Virus record (IMG/VR): IMGVR_UViG_3300009075_000015
Span: 1 to 25,589 of that record
From: a virus
Direction: 5' to 3' (one strand)
DNA length: 25,589 nt
Part shown: piece after piece, positions 3,077 through 23,935 of the stretch
Position numbering within the stretch: position 1 is the stretch's first letter
How the letters are laid out: each line of letters begins with the position of its first letter
Notes under the pieces: generated by a model
What the model saw: the letters and a program-made list of their open reading frames with translations, nothing else
The model's database searches: none
What the model was told of the DNA's origin: nothing
Translations under genes and position numbers: made by a program

Positions 3077-3610
3077 ATGGATCTGACTAGGCTTGAACTG
3101 ATCAACTTCATGGATCCATCGCTATACAAGCCCATCCCCGACTTTGACTTCTCAAATCCCCCTGAAGATCCTGTAGCGCTGAAGGCTGCATTGATCGAAA
3201 AGATGGAGCAACTGAAAGGGGTGGGCTTGTCTGCTAATCAAGTGGGTCTGCCATTCCGCGTGTTCGTGATGGGGTTGCCTGGCAACTACTTTGCGTGCTT
3301 CAATCCGAAGATCATCGGTGCGTCGAAAGAAAAGACTATTATCAAAGAAGGCTGTCTTTCGCTTCCTGGTGTCGTCGTTGCATTGAGCAGACCCGCAGCA
3401 GTAGCCGTTTCGTATCAAGACGAGAATGGCACAGCAGTGGTCAAGGAGCTAGAAGGAATTGGAGCGCGAGTCTTCCAGCATGAGTACGATCATATGGAAG
3501 GTCGCAACTTTATGATGCTTGCCAGCCCGCTGAAACAGAAGCGTGCGTTGGATACTTTGAGAAAGAAGGTTCGTGATGGCAAAAGGCTCGCCAGTTCAGA
3601 CGTTCAGTAA
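3077..3610 (+). CDS. def: Peptide deformylase
   Basis: Metallo-hydrolase that removes the N-terminal formyl group from nascent proteins. All three family motifs are intact: motif 1 GVGLSANQ at residues 48-55, motif 2 EGCLS at 91-95 with metal ligand C93, and motif 3 QHEYDH at 134-139 with ligands H135 and H139 and catalytic E136. The 177-aa length is normal and includes a C-terminal tail that many phage versions lack. The ATG at 3077 follows AAGAGG. The 3' end overlaps the next gene by 35 bases. Phage deformylases are known, notably in cyanophages, where they are thought to favour turnover of host or photosystem proteins; the role in this phage is unknown. Confidence 0.95.
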   Translation: MDLTRLELINFMDPSLYKPIPDFDFSNPPEDPVALKAALIEKMEQLKGVGLSANQVGLPFRVFVMGLPGNYFACFNPKIIGASKEKTIIKEGCLSLPGVVVALSRPAAVAVSYQDENGTAVVKELEGIGARVFQHEYDHMEGRNFMMLASPLKQKRALDTLRKKVRDGKRLASSDVQ

Positions 3611-4946
3611 GCGGGTTGCATTCCTCATATCAGACCAGAGTCTGATCCAGAATGGTGGAATTGGACAGTTCACCAAAGCATTTGCCTTAATGGCGAAAAA
3701 CTTGGGCTGGGCGGTTGATCTGATTTTAGACAAGAAGCCTAGATCAGAGGACTTCATTGCCCAGTTCAGGGATTGCATTGATCGTATCGTGGCGCCGACG
3801 GTTTCGTTACCGTATAGCAGTCATTCCGAAACGTTCGCGTTCACAGATTCGGTCAACTTCGAAAAGCAACTGAATTTCCGTAATGCGTTCATGCTCGCGT
3901 GTCAGGACGTTATGTATGATCTGATCGTGTGCAATGTGCCTGAGACCTATATTCCAGTCTACTCGACTGGGCTATATCGGTACATTCCGACAATCTTCTA
4001 CACCCACAATGAATCAATGATCGGGCTGGGTGAGGATGGGGTCGGGCCGTACAGCAAGGAATACGTCGAAGTGTTCAAGCGTATGTTCACGCTGCCTGGC
4101 ATCTTTGTGGCAACGCAGTCGCAGTCCAATGCTCAACGCTTGGAGTATATGGGTGTGGAGGCGCAGGTCCTTCCCATGCCGCTTTCTGAGCCGACGCTAC
4201 AAGAGCCTTCAACAGACCACATCAAGACTGGTGTGCTGTACATCGGGCGCTGGGAAGAGAGAAAGAATCCGCTAGAGTACCTGCGTATTATCAAAGAGAC
4301 TGGATTGCCTGCAAAGGTCATGACCAATCGTACAGGCGGCGGCAAGTTCGAATCAGCATTCAAGAAGATGGGCATCACCGATTACCATATTGCACAAGAG
4401 CTTAGGCCTAAAGAAAAGGTGGACTTCATTAAGTCTGCGCGAGTGTTCTACAACCCTGCGTTGAAAGAGGCCTTCTGTTACACGATGATTGAAGTGTTGG
4501 GGCACGCGCATGTGGTTGCTCTCTCCGAATACGATTGGTCAGTAGAGTTTTCGCACTATCCTAACGTGCATAGAGTGTTCAAGGCAGGTGCGGCGGCTCT
4601 TGTCAAGAAACTTTATGCCACAGAACCAGACCCTCTCGCACCGCGCAAGGTCAAAATTTACCATGATGTTGCGGTCTCCAGGTGGTGGAACTTTGTTACA
4701 GACCACAAGATCATAGGTAGCCCAAAGAATCGAAGTGAGGTGTCGAAAAAGGATGACATTTGGTACGATGATCATATAGACAGTTTGCAACGCTTTGCGA
4801 GTGTTGAGGATCTGGAAGTCTGCTATAAGGCGTGCGGACCAGATGGGTTCGGTCTCGTTCATGCACCCAGCCGCACATGGTTGACGACAAACAACACCGT
4901 TCCTTCTCCTGTTGAATCAAGGACTTGCGAGGACATATTTGGCTAA
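3576..4946 (+). CDS. GT-B fold glycosyltransferase (GT4-like)
   Basis: Predicted retaining glycosyltransferase of about 456 aa. Counting from the ATG, the N-terminal domain has the GT-B glycine loop GGIGQFTKAF near residues 27-36. The C-terminal domain begins at VLYIGRWEERKNP (about 220-232) and has the nucleotide-sugar E-x7-E motif in EAFCYTMIE (E298, E306). About 150 residues follow with no feature I recognise. The frame is also open from a GTG at 3573, but the ATG at 3576 is better spaced from AAGAAGG (3563-3569). The start lies inside the deformylase gene, so the two are coupled. The target is unknown: modified phage DNA bases, as T4 does with unrelated glucosyltransferases, or host surface glycans. 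The stop codon TAA is also the start of the first promoter-associated repeat. Confidence 0.88.
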   Translation: MAKGSPVQTFSKRVAFLISDQSLIQNGGIGQFTKAFALMAKNLGWAVDLILDKKPRSEDFIAQFRDCIDRIVAPTVSLPYSSHSETFAFTDSVNFEKQLNFRNAFMLACQDVMYDLIVCNVPETYIPVYSTGLYRYIPTIFYTHNESMIGLGEDGVGPYSKEYVEVFKRMFTLPGIFVATQSQSNAQRLEYMGVEAQVLPMPLSEPTLQEPSTDHIKTGVLYIGRWEERKNPLEYLRIIKETGLPAKVMTNRTGGGKFESAFKKMGITDYHIAQELRPKEKVDFIKSARVFYNPALKEAFCYTMIEVLGHAHVVALSEYDWSVEFSHYPNVHRVFKAGAAALVKKLYATEPDPLAPRKVKIYHDVAVSRWWNFVTDHKIIGSPKNRSEVSKKDDIWYDDHIDSLQRFASVEDLEVCYKACGPDGFGLVHAPSRTWLTTNNTVPSPVESRTCEDIFG

Positions 4947-4964
4947 GTCGTTGATTCTATTGGA
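4944..4964 (+). repeat. Promoter-associated repeat, copy 1
   Basis: TAAGTCGTTGATTC followed by TATTGGA. First of two direct copies upstream of the VWA gene promoter; its TAA is the stop codon of the glycosyltransferase. Same element as at 4981, 7524, 7557 (inverted), 20712, 23820, 23846 and 23875. Confidence 0.85.
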
Positions 4965-4980
4965 GAAGTGCAAAGTGTGC

Positions 4981-5002
4981 TAAGTCGTTGATTCTAAAAG
5001 GA
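4981..5002 (+). repeat. Promoter-associated repeat, copy 2
   Basis: TAAGTCGTTGATTC followed by TAAAAGGA. It starts 37 bases after copy 1 and 32 bases before the -35 box at 5013. The same offset (32-33 bases) is found at the 20745 and 23907 promoters, so its position relative to the promoter is fixed. Confidence 0.88.
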
Positions 5003-5012
5003 AAGAAAGTTC

Positions 5013-5041
5013 TTGACACAGGAGACGGGTTCGCGTAAAAT
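5013..5041 (+). promoter_or_regulatory. Strong sigma70-like promoter of the VWA gene
   Basis: TTGACA at 5013-5018, a 17-base spacer and TAAAAT at 5036-5041. The flanks GTTC before -35, TTCGCG just before -10 and AGCGGTCT just after it recur at the 20745 promoter, and nearly so at 23907. Expected transcription start is near 5048-5050, giving a leader of only about 20 bases. Confidence 0.9.
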
Positions 5042-5067
5042 AGCGGTCTAGTCAACGACACCTAGCC

Positions 5068-7512
5068 ATGCAAACTCTCTCCAATATCAAAGACTTGAAC
5101 ACGCAGAACACGCTCGCGGCTGAACAGCGTGAGCAGGCGGTCATGTCGAATCTGGCACGCTTGCTTGCGTCGGAGAACATCCACGTTGCGTTTCGAAAGG
5201 CGCCCACGGCGTCGTTCAACGTCAAGACTCGCGTGCTGATCATCCCCATCTTCACCTCGACCCTGTCGAAGGAGTTGGTGCAGATGCTTGTGGCCCACGA
5301 AGTGGGTCATGCCTTGTGGACGCCTGCCGAAGGTTGGCACGGTACTGTGTCGTCGCGTGGCATGGTCTATAAGGGCTATCTGAACGTCTGCGAGGACGCA
5401 CGCATTGAGCGCAAGATTAAGATCAAGTACCCGGGCGTCAATCGGGACTTTTTCTTCGGCTATCGCGAGCTGCTTGATAAGGGCTTCTTCGGCGACCTTC
5501 GCAGCGTTCTACGCAACCCGCGCGGTGTCTCGCTGGCTGACCGTATCAACCTCTACTACAAGGTTGGTCCACACGTTCCGAACATCCTGTTCACGCAAGA
5601 CGAGCTTGACCTCGTTGAGCAGGTCGGCGAGACTGATACGTTCAACGACGTTCTCCGCGTGACTGATCTGGTCTGGGAGTACGATAAGCAATTCCGTAAG
5701 GACCGTCGCGAACAGGCGAAGTCGGCTCCGGACGCTGGTGGTGAATATCACCAACCTGAAGCTAATGATGACAACGACGACGATGGTATTGACTCGCTTG
5801 ATCGCGACGACAGGAACGACGCTCCGAAGTCTGACGACAATGAGGACGATCTGTCTGACATGGACGATGAGGGCGACAATCAAGACCTGACCCCGGTTGA
5901 CGACGAAGAAACTGGCGATGACGGCGAAGGTGATGCGTCGATTGGCGACGATGACGGCGAAGGGTCTGACGACGATGACGGCGAAGGGTCTGACGACGAT
6001 GACGACGAGGAAACTCGTTTCGGTGACGGTGCTGGCGGCGATGCTGCTGCGGATCGCGACGATGCACCTGAGTTTGCGGAAACTGATCGTATCTTCCGTC
6101 AGAAGGAATCCGAACTGCTGGATCCGGCGTGCCGCGATATCATCTACGCGACGTTGAACAATCCGCTGACGGAAAAGGATGTGAAGATTCCGTACAAGAA
6201 CATGCTCCGGGCGTGTGAGGATTCGTTCAGCAACTCCATTAACTACGAACTGAATCAGTATCGTGGTTTCGATGAGGCCCGCCGTACGGCATGGATTGCG
6301 GAAGAAGAGCGCAAGTTTCATGCAGAGTTTCGCAAGCGCCACGAACGTTACATCACCCACCTTGCCCGCGAATTCGAATTGAAGCGCAATGCGTGGACGA
6401 CTTCGCGCTCGCGTGAGGCGCGTGGTGGGACGTTGAACCTGAACAAGATGCATCAATACAAGTTCAACGACGACCTGTTCAAAAAGGTGTCGGTTGTGCC
6501 GAAGGGCAAGAATCATGGCATGATCATGATCGTGGATGCGTCTGGTTCGATGGCGAATTCGATTGAGAACGTGCTAGAGCAGGCGGCGGTGCTGTCGATG
6601 TTCTGCCGCCGAGTGCAGATTCCGTTCCGGGTGTATGCATTCACCAACCCAGGCTTTACGGAAATTGAGAGAATGTACGGCTTTAAGCAGCCGAGGATCA
6701 AGCCTCGCGTCAACAAGTACGACCGCAGTCTGGTTGATGCTATGGGGGACGGTTGCGAGATTCAGCAAGAGCAGTATGCTCTGATGGAGCTTTTCTCGGA
6801 TCGCATGACGCTGCGCGATTTCAACAAGGCGCTGTTCTACTACATTTCGGCTGTCAGCAATCGGTATGGTGGTCGCAAGATCGCTATGTCGTCCACGCCG
6901 TTGAACGACGCGATTCTCACCATCCCGTCGATGGTTAAGAACCTGCGCGAAGAAACCAAGGTGGACAAGGTGTCGGTGGTCGTGCTGACTGACGGTAGTT
7001 CGGACTGTTCGAATTTCAGCGGTAGGGGGCTTGACTCGGCGCGTCATCGTGTCATTCTGACTTCGCCGTGGAATCGCAAGGCGTTCGAAGTGATGGCGGT
7101 TGATCAGTCCGCAGTGGATTATAGGACTCGTCCACACTACGATGATCTGTGCTTCACTAAGACGTACATCAAGATGGCGGCTGATGCTGCGAACGCTACC
7201 ATCGTTGGCTATCATGTTGTGCCGGGTCGCATGGCGGCTGGGATGCTGAACGAGTATCGCGGCTTCTACAAGAAGTCGGCTGATGACATGAAGATGGACT
7301 TTCGTAACAACAAGATGATGGCGATTGACGATTTCGGTTACGCGCAATACTTCATCATGTGGGACAAGGCGCTGAATCAGGAAGACAAGACGCTGGCTGC
7401 GGTCGATTCGGAGATGACTGTGCGGCGTGCGACTTCGGTGTTCAATGCAATGCAGCAATCGCGGCAGGTGAATCGGGTCTTCCTTTCGAAGTTCATGGAT
7501 CTGATCGCCTAG
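5068..7512 (+). CDS. Metallopeptidase-like and VWA domain protein (CobT-like)
   Basis: An 814-aa predicted partner of the AAA+ ATPase encoded next. Residues about 30-215 form a zincin-like domain with HEVGH (H77, E78, H81) and a downstream CEDARIE (108-114); the ED-x-R-(I/V)-E motif follows HExxH in NorD/CobT-type VWA proteins. A very acidic linker spans about 232-315. The C-terminal VWA domain has an intact MIDAS: DASGS (D490, S492, S494), T610 (SSTPLND) and D642 (LTDGSSD). The layout of acidic linker plus VWA resembles CobT and the Mg-chelatase D subunit; no cobalamin gene is nearby, so 'CobT' should be read as homology only. The ATG at 5068 has no clear Shine-Dalgarno sequence. Likely role is ATP-driven remodelling or proteolysis of an unknown target with the 7658 ATPase. 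Confidence 0.88.
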   Translation: MQTLSNIKDLNTQNTLAAEQREQAVMSNLARLLASENIHVAFRKAPTASFNVKTRVLIIPIFTSTLSKELVQMLVAHEVGHALWTPAEGWHGTVSSRGMVYKGYLNVCEDARIERKIKIKYPGVNRDFFFGYRELLDKGFFGDLRSVLRNPRGVSLADRINLYYKVGPHVPNILFTQDELDLVEQVGETDTFNDVLRVTDLVWEYDKQFRKDRREQAKSAPDAGGEYHQPEANDDNDDDGIDSLDRDDRNDAPKSDDNEDDLSDMDDEGDNQDLTPVDDEETGDDGEGDASIGDDDGEGSDDDDGEGSDDDDDEETRFGDGAGGDAAADRDDAPEFAETDRIFRQKESELLDPACRDIIYATLNNPLTEKDVKIPYKNMLRACEDSFSNSINYELNQYRGFDEARRTAWIAEEERKFHAEFRKRHERYITHLAREFELKRNAWTTSRSREARGGTLNLNKMHQYKFNDDLFKKVSVVPKGKNHGMIMIVDASGSMANSIENVLEQAAVLSMFCRRVQIPFRVYAFTNPGFTEIERMYGFKQPRIKPRVNKYDRSLVDAMGDGCEIQQEQYALMELFSDRMTLRDFNKALFYYISAVSNRYGGRKIAMSSTPLNDAILTIPSMVKNLREETKVDKVSVVVLTDGSSDCSNFSGRGLDSARHRVILTSPWNRKAFEVMAVDQSAVDYRTRPHYDDLCFTKTYIKMAADAANATIVGYHVVPGRMAAGMLNEYRGFYKKSADDMKMDFRNNKMMAIDDFGYAQYFIMWDKALNQEDKTLAAVDSEMTVRRATSVFNAMQQSRQVNRVFLSKFMDLIA
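5947..6004 (+). repeat. 24-base in-frame tandem repeat coding the acidic linker
   Basis: The unit GACGATGACGGCG + AAGGGTCTGAC occurs at 5947-5970 and identically at 5971-5994, with 10 more matching bases to 6004. It encodes DDDGEGSD repeats inside the acidic linker of the VWA protein. Perfect identity suggests recent slippage or expansion. Confidence 0.92.
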
Positions 7513-7523
7513 AGTGGGCTCTC

Positions 7524-7582
7524 TAAGTCATTGATTCCAATAGGAAAACTATTTGGCTTTTCCTTTAAGAATCAATGGCTTA
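7524..7582. repeat. Promoter-associated repeats 3 and 4 as an inverted pair
   Basis: Copy 3 (+ strand, 7524-7548) reads TAAGTCATTGATTC then CAATAGGAAAA. Copy 4 (- strand, 7582-7557) reads TAAGCCATTGATTC then TTAAAGGAAAAG. They face each other across 8 bases (7549-7556) and could form a long imperfect cruciform or RNA hairpin, but no U-tract follows. Six bases after copy 4 comes the -35 box of the AAA+ gene promoter. This is the only place where the element is inverted. Confidence 0.87.
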
Positions 7583-7587
7583 GCCGC

Positions 7588-7616
7588 TTGACAGCAGTTC
7601 CGTTTTCCTGTAGGAT
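7588..7616 (+). promoter_or_regulatory. Strong sigma70-like promoter of the AAA+ gene
   Basis: TTGACA at 7588-7593, 17-base spacer, TAGGAT at 7611-7616, followed by GACGGTTCT, a variant of the AGCGGTCT seen in the sister promoters. Expected start near 7623, so the leader is about 35 bases and carries AAGAGG before the ATG at 7658. Confidence 0.88.
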
Positions 7617-7657
7617 GACGGTTCTTAACTGACATCCTGCCACCAAGAGGATACTAC

Positions 7658-8929
7658 ATGATTGGTCTCACCTCGCAGCAACACGACATTCTCCAGCACC
7701 TGAACTCGGTCTTCGGGCCGGTTGTTTCGCGTGGTCAGTTGATGGACTACTACGCGAAGGGCAAGAATCACGGCATTCTGCCGCGTTGGCTGATGACGAA
7801 GGACTTCGCCGTGGGTCGTGGTATGTACACGACCATCGGTGCGGCGGCGTCGAGTGACAGCAAGCTGGATCCGTCGAAGCCGTTCCCGCCGTTCCCGAAG
7901 TCTGCGAACCCGGTCGGCGAGGCGTTCGCTGGTGTGGTCGAAGCGGACTCGGCAGTTGAAGTGCAGAACGTTATCCCGATGGCGAAGCCCGCCCGCAAGA
8001 ATGCGGCGATTTCGATCGGTGGGCAGAGTGAAGAATCGTTTGTCCCAGACAAGTTCGCCAACTTCGTTCCGTTCGGTAACTACGATGACGTTTACCGCGT
8101 CATCAAGTCGCGGCTCTTCTACCCGGTGTTTATTACGGGTCTGTCGGGCAACGGCAAGACTCTGATGGTCGAGCAGGCGTGTGCGGTGCTGGGTCGTGAA
8201 ATGATCCGCGTGCAAGTGACGCCCGAGACGGACGAGGACGATCTGATCGGTGGCTTCCGTCTGATCGACGGCGAGACTGTCTGGTTCGACGGCCCGGTGA
8301 CGATTGCCGCGATTCGCGGTGCGATCTGTCTGGTCGATGAAATCGACTACGGTACGGGCAAGATTTCTTGCTTGCAGGCCATTCTTGAAGGCAAGGGCAT
8401 TCACCTCAAGAAGGTGAACCGCTTCGTTCCGCTGACGCCTGGGTTCAACATCCTCGCGACTGCGAACACGAAGGGTCGTGGTGCCGAGGAGAACGGTGGG
8501 CGTTTTGTGAACACCCAGATCCTCAACGAGGCGCTGCTTGAACGTTTTGGCATCTGCCTTGAACAAGACTATCCGACGATGAAGACCGAGCTGAAGATCC
8601 TCGAAAAGGAACTGTCGAGTCTCGGTCGTCCCGACGAGGCGTTTGCAACGAATCTGGTGAAGTGGGCCGAAGTCATTCGACGCTCGTTCGAAGCGAACGC
8701 GATTGAGGACGTTATTTCGACGCGCCGTCTTGTCCACATCGTGCGTGCGTTCTCGGTGTTCGGTGACAAGGAGAAGGCGGTGGAGAAGTGCGTGACTCGT
8801 TTTGACCGTCAGACCCGCGACTCGTTCATTGAGTTGTATTCCAAAATCGCAATCGGGGAGGATAACCCCGCTGCGGCAGAAACCAAGACTATCCCGGAAG
8901 AAGATGGGAGTGCTACAACGACGTTCTAA
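7658..8929 (+). CDS. AAA+ ATPase of the MoxR/CobS type
   Basis: A 423-aa ATPase with Walker A GLSGNGKT at 161-168, Walker B ICLVDEID around 223-230, sensor-1 ATAN at 267-270 (N270) and an arginine-finger candidate in LLERF (R296). The stretch PETDEDDLIGGFRL just after Walker A is typical of CobS/MoxR proteins. Residues 1-60 (LTSQQHDILQHLNS then a basic tail) look like a winged-helix unit similar to the separate protein at 9014. MoxR-type ATPases work with VWA proteins, and the VWA gene lies immediately upstream behind a sister promoter. CobS-like genes are common in T4-type phages but their phage role is unproven. Start chosen by AAGAGG seven bases before the ATG. Ends with an acidic tail. 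Confidence 0.92.
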   Translation: MIGLTSQQHDILQHLNSVFGPVVSRGQLMDYYAKGKNHGILPRWLMTKDFAVGRGMYTTIGAAASSDSKLDPSKPFPPFPKSANPVGEAFAGVVEADSAVEVQNVIPMAKPARKNAAISIGGQSEESFVPDKFANFVPFGNYDDVYRVIKSRLFYPVFITGLSGNGKTLMVEQACAVLGREMIRVQVTPETDEDDLIGGFRLIDGETVWFDGPVTIAAIRGAICLVDEIDYGTGKISCLQAILEGKGIHLKKVNRFVPLTPGFNILATANTKGRGAEENGGRFVNTQILNEALLERFGICLEQDYPTMKTELKILEKELSSLGRPDEAFATNLVKWAEVIRRSFEANAIEDVISTRRLVHIVRAFSVFGDKEKAVEKCVTRFDRQTRDSFIELYSKIAIGEDNPAAAETKTIPEEDGSATTTF

Positions 8930-13039: not shown

Positions 13040-13243
13040 ATGAGTGAGAAAAAGGTAGACGGCAGTGGCAAGAAGCCGGTGATGCAGATGCCTAAGAGTA
13101 TCAAGCGAATCCTCGCCTTAATGGATCCAGCAGCCAGCAAGGCGTACAAGCCTATAATGTGGGACGCGGTTAAAACCTATAACTTTCAACATCAACAAAT
13201 GCTGCGCCGAAAGTCAGGGGACAAAGATAGCGCAGGGGATTGA
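13040..13243 (+). CDS. Small basic hypothetical protein
   Basis: A 67-aa lysine/arginine-rich protein (MSEKKVDGSGKKPVMQMPK, then IKRILALMDPAASKAYKPI). No known motif is seen. GGGGGAG seven bases before the ATG is a strong ribosome site. It sits between the Sm-like candidate and the Ntn-hydrolase gene; the latter starts within three bases of its stop, which supports a real, co-translated gene. Confidence 0.72.
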   Translation: MSEKKVDGSGKKPVMQMPKSIKRILALMDPAASKAYKPIMWDAVKTYNFQHQQMLRRKSGDKDSAGD

Positions 13244-13245
13244 TT

Positions 13246-13779
13246 ATGACTACGATAGTCTATTGCAATCGAACAAAGCAATTGGCTGCCGATACCCGGG
13301 TTGGGTTTAACGGCTATCACGGCTTTGGGTCAAAAATACTGTTCCCCAAAAAGAATGTGATCATTGCTACAGCAGGCGATGGTGGTTCTGGTGAATGGAT
13401 CAGGTACAAGCTTCAGAAACTCAATTCCATTCACGACCTATATTTCATTCCAGACAAACCGAAGTTGGACGAGGAGTTCAGTGCCTTCGTTTGGTGGAAC
13501 GGCCCGTACATGATCACCGAGGATCTCAATCCGTTCCCTATTGAAACTGCATGGTGGTCGGATGGTACTGGCGGCGATTTTGCCCTGGCATTTCTGTCTA
13601 TGGGTATGGATCTTCCAGAAGCAATGATGCGGGCTGTGCGGTTAGACAGTAACTCTGGCCCACCGATTCATGTGGTGAAGTGTGATTCGACGGACAAGAA
13701 GATTAAGGTGTATCAGGATACTCTGAATCTGCCACCAATTAACGAGCAGTGCCACGTATTCAAAAATCCACCGCAATGA
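13246..13779 (+). CDS. HslV/proteasome beta-like Ntn-hydrolase
   Basis: A 177-aa protein that begins MTTIVYCNRTKQLAADTR, like HslV (mature N-terminus TTI-V). The expected catalytic set is in place: Thr2 as N-terminal nucleophile once Met1 is removed, D16 in AADTR (HslV D17) and K30 in GSKILF (HslV K33). The strand IIATAGDGGSGEW follows as in HslV. Length equals HslV (about 175 aa). No HslU-type unfoldase lies in the window. A TTG two codons upstream is in frame, but the ATG at 13246 is better spaced from AGGGG. It could be an active peptidase or a structural relative; oligomeric state cannot be read from sequence. Confidence 0.82.
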   Translation: MTTIVYCNRTKQLAADTRVGFNGYHGFGSKILFPKKNVIIATAGDGGSGEWIRYKLQKLNSIHDLYFIPDKPKLDEEFSAFVWWNGPYMITEDLNPFPIETAWWSDGTGGDFALAFLSMGMDLPEAMMRAVRLDSNSGPPIHVVKCDSTDKKIKVYQDTLNLPPINEQCHVFKNPPQ

Positions 13780-19824: not shown

Positions 19825-20475
19825 ATGTACCTTCAAGAGGCAATCGAAGATGGTCTTTGGGCCGTAAGAAAAGACCTGATCACAACATCTGTCGTGAATG
19901 AGCAGGTGGAGGTACTTGCCCCTGTTCTGGCAGAGTTCGGTGCGAAGTTTCGAAAAGCCTCTCGTCCGCATGATACTTGGTCGTTGACGGGATTCTACGA
20001 TCCGAATCGTGACGACATATTGCTCGTCATGGGTTGCAGAGACACCAAACGCAAATACGAGTTCCGGGACGAGGTTCATTGCAGCCTCTATCTTTTTGAA
20101 CTCAACACTACGGTTCAGCATGAGCTGATTCATAAATATCAATGGTTGCAAAGGGATCCTGATGTTCATAGTTCGCGCATGTACAAGGCGGCAAGCAAGA
20201 AGCAACATTACTATAGCGACTATGACGAAATCGAAACTCAGGCCCATGACTTAGCAATGGAGATAAAGTATCACTATCCTGAACTGCCTGTGAATGAGAT
20301 ATTGAGGGAGTATATGCATGGAGATGCGGATCTTCCCACATTGAATAACTACATGAAGGCGTTCAACTGTGATACTTCGCATCCAGCGATGAAGAGGCTA
20401 TACAAGAAACTGTTCATCTGGCTGCCGAAAGTCCAAGTCAAAAGACCAATAACATATTCTTGGGAGGAAGCATGA
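19825..20475 (+). CDS. Putative zinc metallopeptidase-like protein (HELIH)
   Basis: A 216-aa protein with a clear zincin motif, VQHELIHKYQ (H99, E100, H103), and a downstream DEIETQAHDLA in which E135 or E137 could be the third metal ligand. The strand FELNTTVQHE directly before the motif is the usual edge-strand/helix arrangement of zincins. The rest is not recognised, and no signal peptide is seen, so it would act in the host cytoplasm. ATG at 19825, one base after the gp41 stop, behind GAAGG. It is unrelated at motif level to the HEVGH VWA protein at 5068. Substrate unknown. Confidence 0.8.
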   Translation: MYLQEAIEDGLWAVRKDLITTSVVNEQVEVLAPVLAEFGAKFRKASRPHDTWSLTGFYDPNRDDILLVMGCRDTKRKYEFRDEVHCSLYLFELNTTVQHELIHKYQWLQRDPDVHSSRMYKAASKKQHYYSDYDEIETQAHDLAMEIKYHYPELPVNEILREYMHGDADLPTLNNYMKAFNCDTSHPAMKRLYKKLFIWLPKVQVKRPITYSWEEA

Positions 20476-20672: not shown

Positions 20673-20704
20673 AACCCCTTGAAGTTTAAGGGGTTTTCGC
20701 TTTT
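20673..20704 (+). terminator. Strong intrinsic terminator
   Basis: AACCCCTT (20673-20680) pairs with AAGGGGTT (20688-20695) around GAAGTTT, followed by TTCGCTTTT. It closes the replication block and isolates the next operon. Confidence 0.88.
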
Positions 20705-20711
20705 GTGCGGC

Positions 20712-20737
20712 TAAGTAACTGATTCCATTAAGGAAAA
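20712..20737 (+). repeat. Promoter-associated repeat, copy 5
   Basis: TAAGTAACTGATTC followed by CATTAAGGAAAA, starting 33 bases before the -35 box at 20745. Single copy here. Confidence 0.87.
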
Positions 20738-20744
20738 ATAGTTC

Positions 20745-20773
20745 TTGACAGAATCTCCTGATTCGCGTAGGAT
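20745..20773 (+). promoter_or_regulatory. Strong sigma70-like promoter of accessory operon 1
   Basis: TTGACA at 20745-20750, 17-base spacer ending in GATTCGCG, TAGGAT at 20768-20773, then AGCGGTCT. Nearly identical in plan to the 5013 and 23907 promoters. Expected start near 20780, giving a leader of about 17 bases that contains GGAGG. Confidence 0.9.
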
Positions 20774-21021: not shown

Positions 21022-21320
21022 TGTTTGACCAGTACCCGTTGTCGCAGATCACAGTCAAAGACATTGCCGAGGCGCTTCCCCATAAGGAAGACAATCCAAC
21101 GATGCTGAAGCTCCGCGCTGCGCGTGAGGCTCTCGGCACGAAGGCGGCTGTCGATTCGAACAGCAATTTCGTGATGCCACCGGGCGTCGGCTCCTACAAC
21201 CTGAAGGTGTGGGCGGCGTCGCGTCTCCTCGCTCGTAAGGAGATGGAAGAAGACCTTGAGTATCAGGCCATCAAAGCCCTTGCAGCGGCGAAGGCGAAGA
21301 AAGCCAAGAGGCGGGCGTAG
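21021..21320 (+). CDS. Hypothetical protein
   Basis: A 99-aa protein coupled to the preceding gene by TAATG, with AAGGAG upstream. Residues 10-38 (ITVKDIAEALPHKEDNP, LKLRAAREAL) have a helix-turn-helix-like rhythm, but no sure match. The C-terminus is a lysine/arginine- and alanine-rich helix (ALAAAKAKKAKRRA), suggesting nucleic-acid or protein contact. Function unknown. Confidence 0.75.
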   Translation: MFDQYPLSQITVKDIAEALPHKEDNPTMLKLRAAREALGTKAAVDSNSNFVMPPGVGSYNLKVWAASRLLARKEMEEDLEYQAIKALAAAKAKKAKRRA

Positions 21321-21324
21321 TCAG

Positions 21325-21699
21325 ATGAAAACCATTGTCGCGGGTTCGCGGCACATGACTGACTACGCTTTCCTCAACGAGCGTATGCAAGCGGTGCCGT
21401 GGGAGATAACTGAGGTCGTGTGCGGATGCGCGCCTGGCGCAGATACGTTAGGCTCGGAGTGGGCGCAAATTAAAGGCATTCCTGTCTCATACTTTCCTGC
21501 TGATTGGAAGAAGTTGGGCCGCGCAGCCGGCCCGATTCGCAACAAACAAATGGCCGAAAACGCAGACGCACTGGTGGCGTTTCTGTACCCAGGTAGTCGC
21601 GGTACTGCGAACATGATCAAGCAGGCGCACAAGTTGAAACTGCGCGTGTGTGTCGTGTACTGTACCGAAAATGTGAATCCAGGAGTCTTTGGAATATGA
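21325..21699 (+). CDS. SLOG/DUF2493 family protein (YspA-like)
   Basis: A 124-aa Rossmann-like protein with the SLOG signature in order: KTIVAGSR at the N-terminus, VVCGCAPGADTLGSEWA, FPADWKKLGRAAGPIRN, MAENADALVAF and PGSRGTANMI. SLOG domains bind nucleotide-type ligands and occur in sensors or effectors of biological conflict systems as well as in many phages (family knowledge); here the ligand is unknown. The frame is open further upstream, but the ATG at 21325 starts exactly at the conserved first strand, so the upstream part is discounted. Next gene overlaps (ATGA). Confidence 0.87.
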   Translation: MKTIVAGSRHMTDYAFLNERMQAVPWEITEVVCGCAPGADTLGSEWAQIKGIPVSYFPADWKKLGRAAGPIRNKQMAENADALVAFLYPGSRGTANMIKQAHKLKLRVCVVYCTENVNPGVFGI

Positions 21700-23159: not shown

Positions 23160-23354
23160 CTCACCGCCGCCGAGCATGGGCTGTCGCTGATGCTGGCGGG
23201 GCGGCTTGACGAGCAAGGCAACCCCATTGGCCCGCTGCGCCTGTATCACCGCTGCGAGGGGTGCGAAAGCGCCCTGCGCCTGTTGCAGAGCATGGGCAAA
23301 TATCCCGGCGCTCAACCTGCCGATGACGCCGCGCTAAAGGAGCCTAATGAATAA
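23049..23354 (+). CDS. Hypothetical Ea22-like phage protein
   Basis: A 101-aa protein beginning MSDLVKRLRMPSIP, then DLDDAANEIELLQAERDALL, a plan I associate with small phage proteins of the Ea22-like type (MSD-L-V-x-R-L-R ... A-A-x-x-I-E-x-L-x-A-E-R-D-A-L). The C-terminal half has CEGCESALRLLQ with two close Cys. The start overlaps the previous stop and has GGGGGAGGG upstream, sequence shared with the 22475 site. Role unknown. Confidence 0.78.
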   Translation: MSDLVKRLRMPSIPTYRKDLDDAANEIELLQAERDALLTAAEHGLSLMLAGRLDEQGNPIGPLRLYHRCEGCESALRLLQSMGKYPGAQPADDAALKEPNE

Positions 23355-23658
23355 GCTTAGAGTGTTTCTTGATGATGTGCGCCCAGCCCCCGATGCGAAT
23401 TGGACGGTAGTGCGGGACCCAAAACTAGCCATTGTAATGCTTGAGTTTGGGATCGTAGAAGAAATTTCGTTCGACCATGATTTGGGCGAGGGGCAAAAGA
23501 CTGGCTATGAAGTTGCTTGTGTGATCGAATGGCTGGTGCATAAGGGAAAGATCGACATGCCAAAATGGCATGTGCATTCTGCAAATCCTGTTGGCAGGGC
23601 CAACATTACTGCGGCAATGCAGGCGGCTGAAAAGTTGGCACAACGAAATAAGGAGTAA
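23347..23658 (+). CDS. Receiver-like domain protein (cREC type)
   Basis: A 103-aa protein with LRVFLDDVRPAP (D9, D10), EISFDHDLG (D43, H44, D45) and WHVHSANPVGRANI (H77, S78, N80). This is the pattern of the 'cyclic-phosphate processing receiver' domain, a receiver-fold relative proposed from comparative genomics to be linked with RNA-end or nucleotide processing in conflict systems; biochemical proof is not known to me. AAGGAG precedes the ATG at 23347, which overlaps the preceding gene by 8 bases. Confidence 0.83.
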   Translation: MNKLRVFLDDVRPAPDANWTVVRDPKLAIVMLEFGIVEEISFDHDLGEGQKTGYEVACVIEWLVHKGKIDMPKWHVHSANPVGRANITAAMQAAEKLAQRNKE

Positions 23659-23845: not shown

Positions 23846-23867
23846 TAACCCATTGATTCATATAGGA
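23846..23867 (+). repeat. Promoter-associated repeat, copy 7
   Basis: TAACCCATTGATTC followed by ATATAGGA. Middle copy of the row. Confidence 0.83.
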
Positions 23868-23874
23868 GCTACGC

Positions 23875-23897
23875 TAAGTCATTGATTCCATTGAGGA
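23875..23897 (+). repeat. Promoter-associated repeat, copy 8
   Basis: TAAGTCATTGATTC followed by CATTGAGGA, 32 bases before the -35 box at 23907, the same offset as copy 2. Confidence 0.88.
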
Positions 23898-23906
23898 AGA
23901 AAGTTC

Positions 23907-23935
23907 TTGACACGATTCGCCGATTCCCGTACAAT
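23907..23935 (+). promoter_or_regulatory. Strong sigma70-like promoter of accessory operon 2
   Basis: TTGACA at 23907-23912, 17-base spacer, TACAAT at 23930-23935, then AGCGGT directly followed by the ATG at 23942. The predicted transcription start coincides with the A of the start codon. Confidence 0.9.

Follow-up and report, generated by a model that had tools for sequence, protein, structure and literature searches.

A zincin–VWA protein and its MoxR/CobS-type AAA+ partner in T4-like phages as a candidate early, replication-linked remodelling machine

The window analysed here, positions 1 to 25,589 of IMG/VR record IMGVR_UViG_3300009075_000015, is a 25.6-kb (25,589 nt) fragment of a T4-like myovirus. 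It carries two adjacent genes that encode a zincin–VWA protein of 814 amino acids (aa; 5068–7512, + strand) and a MoxR/CobS-type AAA+ ATPase of 423 aa (7658–8929, + strand). We propose, with a probability of about 0.5, that this pair serves early in infection as an ATP-driven, zincin-coupled remodeller that acts on a protein complex associated with DNA or replication. The proposal is built on computed results: the domains of both proteins, the strict linkage and co-evolution of their genes, the conserved residues of the zinc site and of the metal ion-dependent adhesion site (MIDAS), the early-type promoters, the location beside replication genes in two unrelated phage settings and the separation from the chelatase proteins CobS/CobT. 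It supposes that the two proteins would form a complex, that the zincin domain would be an active peptidase and that the target would be DNA-linked.

The pair would work as one machine, in which the AAA+ protein forms an ATP-using MoxR-type ring and the VWA protein is the partner of the ring. The VWA/MIDAS domain may bind a substrate peptide, an acidic linker may transmit force, and the zincin domain at the N-terminus would cut, or at least grip, the displaced or unfolded segment. The machine would be made early, from a host-type promoter for each subunit, and its target would be a DNA-bound or replication-associated protein complex, its role being neither cobalt insertion nor virion building. 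Early promoters and the constant location beside DNA-replication genes suggest that it acts early on a DNA-linked complex. An earlier note, made from the letters of the window alone, had offered RNA polymerase, the nucleoid or a defence complex as targets. These remain guesses; the evidence favours a DNA- or replication-linked complex, with no single protein named.

Domains and conservation of the two proteins

The 814-aa protein, which is distantly CobT-like, matches the profile phrog_459 ('peptidase') over nearly its full length (E 9.7e-161, residues 22–814). Its best conserved region is an N-terminal zincin-like domain (residues 27–222; 5146–5733, + strand, like all features of the two genes). 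This domain contains the motif HEVGH (residues 77–81; 5296–5310), with a putative zinc-binding and catalytic role, and the motif NVCEDARIE (residues 106–114), in which E109 of VCE (residues 107–109; 5386–5394) is the proposed third zinc ligand. An acidic linker of low model confidence comes next (residues 223–335; 5734–6072), in which D/E make up 47% and K/R 5% of residues 225–330, and sequence and fold comparison place a VWA domain with a complete MIDAS (D490-x-S492-x-S494, then T610 and D642) at 6502–7509. These features had been named in the earlier note, and its coordinates and the residue numbers E78, D490 and K167 in the two open reading frames (ORFs) are correct.

HExxH occurs by chance in 1.5% of shuffles of the 814-aa protein. 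For a conservation test that is not circular, partners were taken solely via the AAA gene, and the zincin motif was not used for selection. HExxH was kept in 49/49 T4-like partners found in this way, with variable x positions (VG, VS, CG, TA, CA and TG). A pattern match to the third-ligand motif NxxEDxR was found in 48/49, as was the DxSGS MIDAS. The zincin motif is therefore not a product of chance, since its H, E and H residues and the third-ligand E show no or almost no variation among independently chosen relatives. Conservation per domain was 0.60 for the zincin, the highest in the protein, compared with 0.45 for the VWA domain, and the earlier view that both parts are real and constrained holds for the T4-like partners.

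An AlphaFold2 model of the 814-aa protein, built from 91 sequences, had high confidence in the N-terminal domain and over most of the VWA domain and showed the acidic linker as disordered. In the model three strands precede the HEVGH helix (68–84), which is followed by a long helix carrying E109 (99–120). This order of strands and helices is compatible with that expected of a zincin, as read from the secondary structure by ourselves rather than from a fold match. When the whole model was submitted to Foldseek/VIA, the VWA domain filled both match lists and left the zincin part without an independent match. The VWA fold was nearest to the midasin MIDAS domain (Z 14.8, 223 residues, 3.9 Å) and the NorD VWA domain (Z 14.7). 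Direct searches of Pfam and NCBIfam with the VWA protein of the window gave nothing above cut-off, and a PDB search with the A3 profile gave no credible match.

The 423-aa protein matches phrog_249 over its full length (4.2e-98) and, in Pfam, AAA_5 (1.3e-17) and CbbQ_C. It has a Walker A motif GLSGNGKT (residues 161–168, including K167; 8138–8161) and a Walker B motif DEID (residues 227–230; 8336–8347). The predicted topology H-b-H-H-b-b points to a winged-helix-like N-terminal domain (residues 1–60; 7658–7837), for which Pfam returned chance-level matches only. The nearest AAA folds were CbbQ (VIA Z 26.4) and NorQ (24.7), with a root-mean-square deviation of 2.2 over 250–261 residues, and then midasin (Z 16.9). 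Sequence matches were to midasin, NorQ and CobS, the last with a profile match of 9e-34. Because the nearest relatives CbbQ, NorQ, midasin and NorD are all of the MoxR class, a remodelling mechanism of that class is well supported. Identity to most relatives is 39–52% for the ATPase and approximately 25–32% for the zincin–VWA protein; two IMG/VR contigs are closer, at 63–73% and 42–54%, respectively.

These fold matches, and the presence of a metal chelatase in the family, also lend something to a role as a metal-centre insertase or activator like NorQ–NorD or CbbQ–CbbO, in which HExxH would hold a metal instead of cutting a peptide. However, conserved catalytic and third-ligand glutamates with variable x positions are the pattern of a peptidase, and no conserved metalloenzyme neighbour was seen. 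We regard such a role as quite improbable.

Pairing, promoters and replication-gene setting

The two genes travel together. In the window they are neighbours in the same orientation between gp46 and gp45, the VWA gene preceding the AAA gene. In IMG/VR every CobS-type locus with room for a VWA partner had one upstream in the same orientation (46/46), and in the reverse direction, from VWA gene to AAA gene, the partner was found in 57/59 loci with room; the two exceptions are one contig with CobS 8 kb away and one short fragment. Among annotated phages, the match counts of the two proteins, searched separately, agree for most genera. The distance matrices of the pair correlate at r=0.89, and the partial r is 0.71 once gp45/gp44 is removed; the known partners gp45 and gp44, used as a benchmark, gave 0.90. 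The co-occurrence across phage genomes expected in the earlier note was thus found, and independent travel of the two genes is ruled out.

The setting among replication genes is equally constant. The core order on the + strand of the window is gp47, gp46, peptide deformylase, the two pair genes, gp45, gp44, gp62, regA, hsp20, gp43, uvsX and gp41, several of these names being assigned from position and similarity, and the T4-like order is gp47–gp46–pair–gp45–gp44. The pair also occurs in a second, unrelated group, comprising SSU5-like phage-plasmids and relatives from Rhizobium, Pseudomonas, Stenotrophomonas, Aeromonas and Acinetobacter. In all 43 non-redundant loci of this type the two genes occur together and are followed, in the same orientation, by dnaE, with at most 2–3 genes between pair and dnaE in the annotated examples, and in 17 of the 43 a sigma-factor gene directly follows the pair. 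HExxH is kept in 44/45 of the phage-plasmid-type VWA partners. At least 38 of 48 dnaE-linked members have an AAA protein that opens with a C2H2 finger like that of ROS/MucR, the individual profile matches being weak. Two distant lineages therefore seem to have gained different DNA-binding-like domains on the motor, both beside replicative polymerase genes.

Each gene of the pair in the window has its own sigma-70-type (early) promoter with a perfect consensus site, TTGACA-N17-TAAAAT (5013–5041, +) for the zincin–VWA gene and TTGACA-N17-TAGGAT (7588–7616, +) for the AAA+ gene. These are two of the window's six perfect TTGACR-N17-TANNAT sites (expected number 0.05), so that the strong promoter of one type noted earlier before each gene is borne out; the other four precede gp43, uvsX and two small ORFs. 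A stem-loop with 26-nt arms (7523–7583, +; about -30 kcal/mol) lies between the pair genes, directly 5' of the second promoter. This arrangement resembles the promoter early stem-loop cassettes of T4-type phages. A CTAAGTCRTTGATTCYA-like repeat was observed upstream of several early-type promoters (7523–7616, 4942–5041, about 20700–20773 and 23865–23935), and it is this repeat that makes up the stem-loop between the pair genes.

A promoter scan covered the upstream regions of 126 VWA and 135 AAA genes, with a sigma-70 site defined by at least 10/12 matching positions. A strong site precedes 55% of each pair gene, compared with 3–4% in dinucleotide shuffles, and this frequency exceeds that of every neighbouring gene. 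The late-promoter motif NATAAATA precedes only 1–2% of the pair genes, compared with 40% of the neighbouring hsp20 genes, which indicates that the scan is capable of detecting the late motif. A phage transcriptome paper did not name cobS or the peptidase.

These data bear on a proposal of Iyer et al. 2021 (PMC7824862), who suggested that in jumbo phages a MoxR protein and its metallopeptidase-vWA partner act as a chaperone-protease in virion assembly or maturation. The same paper cites a MoxR-vWA system without peptidase as required for the assembly of an archaeal two-tailed virus, and predicts that zincins process phage structural proteins. In the T4-like pair, the scarcity of late motifs relative to hsp20, the frequency of sigma-70 sites and a neighbourhood of replication genes rather than structural genes are all evidence against such a role for the lineage of the window, and we consider it unlikely.

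The early-type promoters on both genes and the intact zincin in lytic phages would also suit a machine of host takeover or anti-defence, which would extract or cleave a host protein from an RNA polymerase-associated, nucleoid or defence complex. This is possible, but we lean away from it. The near-invariant site beside replication genes and the strong conservation in phages whose hosts range from Pelagibacter to Klebsiella are better explained by a target that belongs to the phage, and the PADLOC defence models gave no match.

Several points weigh against an early remodelling protease with a replication-linked target. The complex, the zinc binding and the protease activity are predictions, and the zincin part has no Pfam match above cut-off. 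The DNA-binding N-termini are proposed from predicted topology and weak profile matches (best 4.8e-5, below the Pfam cut-off). Gene order can reflect inheritance rather than function, and early promoters are compatible with a late role and do not exclude one. The zinc-ligand histidines are lost, with the pair and its dnaE linkage kept, in Stenotrophomonas, Pseudomonas and Acinetobacter elements (L014, L015 and L184), which have DREVST, DSEIS and DQEVA instead. Their sequences suggest separate losses of catalysis, and catalysis would therefore be dispensable in the nickie-type Pseudomonas, Stenotrophomonas and Acinetobacter relatives.

Other genes of the window were also noted. A phage peptide deformylase gene (3077–3610) lies shortly upstream of the pair, and def likewise precedes the pair in 27/49 of the T4-like loci that were found through the VWA protein. 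An HslV-family peptidase-like protein (13240–13779; start MTTIV; phrog_1040 match 5e-19) had no Pfam match, and no HslU gene was seen within the window. A possible second zincin (19825–20475) has the motif HELIH and a SprT-like match below threshold. Proteins with cREC (cyclic-phosphate processing receiver) and YAcAr SLOG-family domains are encoded at 23347–23658 and 21256–21699, respectively; both families have been linked to nucleotide-signal conflict.

The cobaltochelatase question and the origin of CobT

Liu et al. 2021 (PMC8651126) described cobST as common across tailed viruses and as part of the cyanophage core, and proposed that it helps the host CobN; the annotation 'cobS' in cyanophages likewise implies a role in cobalamin (PMC3037559). 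An auxiliary CobST that would take over the host's CobN and so increase cobalamin has real homology behind it, distant in the case of CobS and reached through intermediates in the case of CobT. However, the AAA protein scored 53.5 bits against CobS (TIGR01650), ten-fold under the curated equivalog cut-off of 558.55. The VWA protein of the window had no match to CobT (TIGR01651 / PF06213+PF11775), and the nearest CobT-like phage relative scored 80 bits against a cut-off of 759. Pfam matches to CobN or CobT were absent from the window, which is a fragment of 25.6 kb, in agreement with the earlier statement that it holds no chelatase gene, and CobN was absent from 13 complete phage or plasmid records carrying the pair. 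No CobN or CobT match was found in an E. coli control genome (the window's own host is not identified), yet hundreds of plasmids from E. coli, Klebsiella and related bacteria carry the pair. No surveyed human-gut genome used the CobNST route (PMC4403557). The cut-off for the B12-dependent reductase NrdJ was reached by none of the records examined; five had no ribonucleotide reductase match, and three had reductase-like matches of 590–630 aa. HExxH was absent from the best 30 cellular CobT loci (30/30). Judged from these sequences the pair is not a cobaltochelatase, a chelatase role is very improbable, and the CobT/CobS labels are, as the earlier note held, misleading. The same is true of the name 'cobalamin synthesis', which the pair bears in many phages.

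The relationship of the zincin to CobT appears to be one of descent. When the profile of the T4-like zincin was compared directly with that of cellular CobT alone, the match was weak (E 0.0022, probability 13%). The T4-like zincin matches the phage-plasmid/integrative and conjugative element (ICE)-like set at 9e-18, and that set matches cellular CobT at 3e-10, so the homology is drawn from the bridge formed by these forms and not from direct comparison. In the alignment HExxH lies opposite a conserved non-catalytic RG-x-x-D-x-x-AL stretch of CobT, and the glutamate motif is retained. A protein of Klebsiella pJN2-26 scores 83 bits to the Pfam CobT N-terminal and 334 bits to the CobT_C model and still has HEVGH...NALEDVYIER. 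ICE-like zincin-VWA genes also retain HExxH. Two clusters in proteobacterial genomes (L305 and L310) combine a CobS-like AAA gene, a DUF3150-like protein and a zincin-VWA with HEAAH or HESAH; the DUF3150 and ICE labels are ones that we take to apply. In the tree of the AAA partners the T4-like, phage-plasmid, ICE-like and cellular forms make four separate supported groups. These sequences are most simply explained if CobT is a decayed zincin; the direction of decay is inferred, since the root of the tree is not fixed. The description of the pair as phage-specific is not supported as it stood, since members of the family also occur on ICE-like elements and cellular CobST forms a clade within it.

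Tentatively, the pair may represent a new class of phage replication-linked remodelling protease, in which a MoxR ring, tethered to DNA by its N-terminal domain, uses a zincin-VWA partner to dismantle or cut a nucleoprotein complex at an early stage of infection. Cellular CobST would then be a domesticated, peptidase-dead descendant. If CobST did descend from a mobile-element family, the usual annotation runs backwards. The 'cobS' of T4-like cyanophages is a core gene that is widely counted as a vitamin B12 auxiliary metabolic gene. If the pair is an early remodelling protease linked to replication, this ecological interpretation is wrong, and an unrecognised core machine is shared by ocean phages of very high abundance and by hundreds of enterobacterial phage-plasmids already sequenced. 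The E. coli phage-plasmid versions of the pair make the question testable in laboratory strains.

Comparison with known systems

The pair and its architecture, which the earlier note had implied to be newly seen, are already in the literature (PMC7824862, PMC8651126, PMC3037559), and the system is not new. What is added here are tests between the published functions, the link from zincin to CobT and the association with replication and DNA binding.

The core 'peptidase' and 'CobS' of cyanophages (phrog_459 and phrog_249) are the same system in their full-length matches, gene order and gp46–gp45 location. They differ in that the proteins of the window have low identity to most relatives, and in annotations that imply cobalamin or give no function. 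The aerobic cobaltochelatase CobS–CobT shares a homologous AAA+ ring and a partner with an N-domain, linker and VWA domain, whereas CobT lacks HExxH, CobS falls in a separate well-supported clade and CobN is absent for the phage pair. The ICE-borne clusters have a zincin-VWA with HEAAH/HESAH and EDxRIE near a CobS-like AAA gene, but in another gene order and with one extra gene. NorQ–NorD, CbbQ–CbbO and midasin, as MoxR-class remodellers, are similar in fold, with Z 23–26 (NorQ/CbbQ) and 17 (midasin) for the AAA+ part and Z 13–15 for the VWA part. To our knowledge none of them has an N-terminal zincin. The group 2.2 jumbo-phage MoxR plus metallopeptidase-vWA pair (PMC7824862) has the same two-gene architecture and domain order. 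Virion assembly was proposed for that pair, whereas the lineage of the window has early-type promoters and linkage to replication genes.

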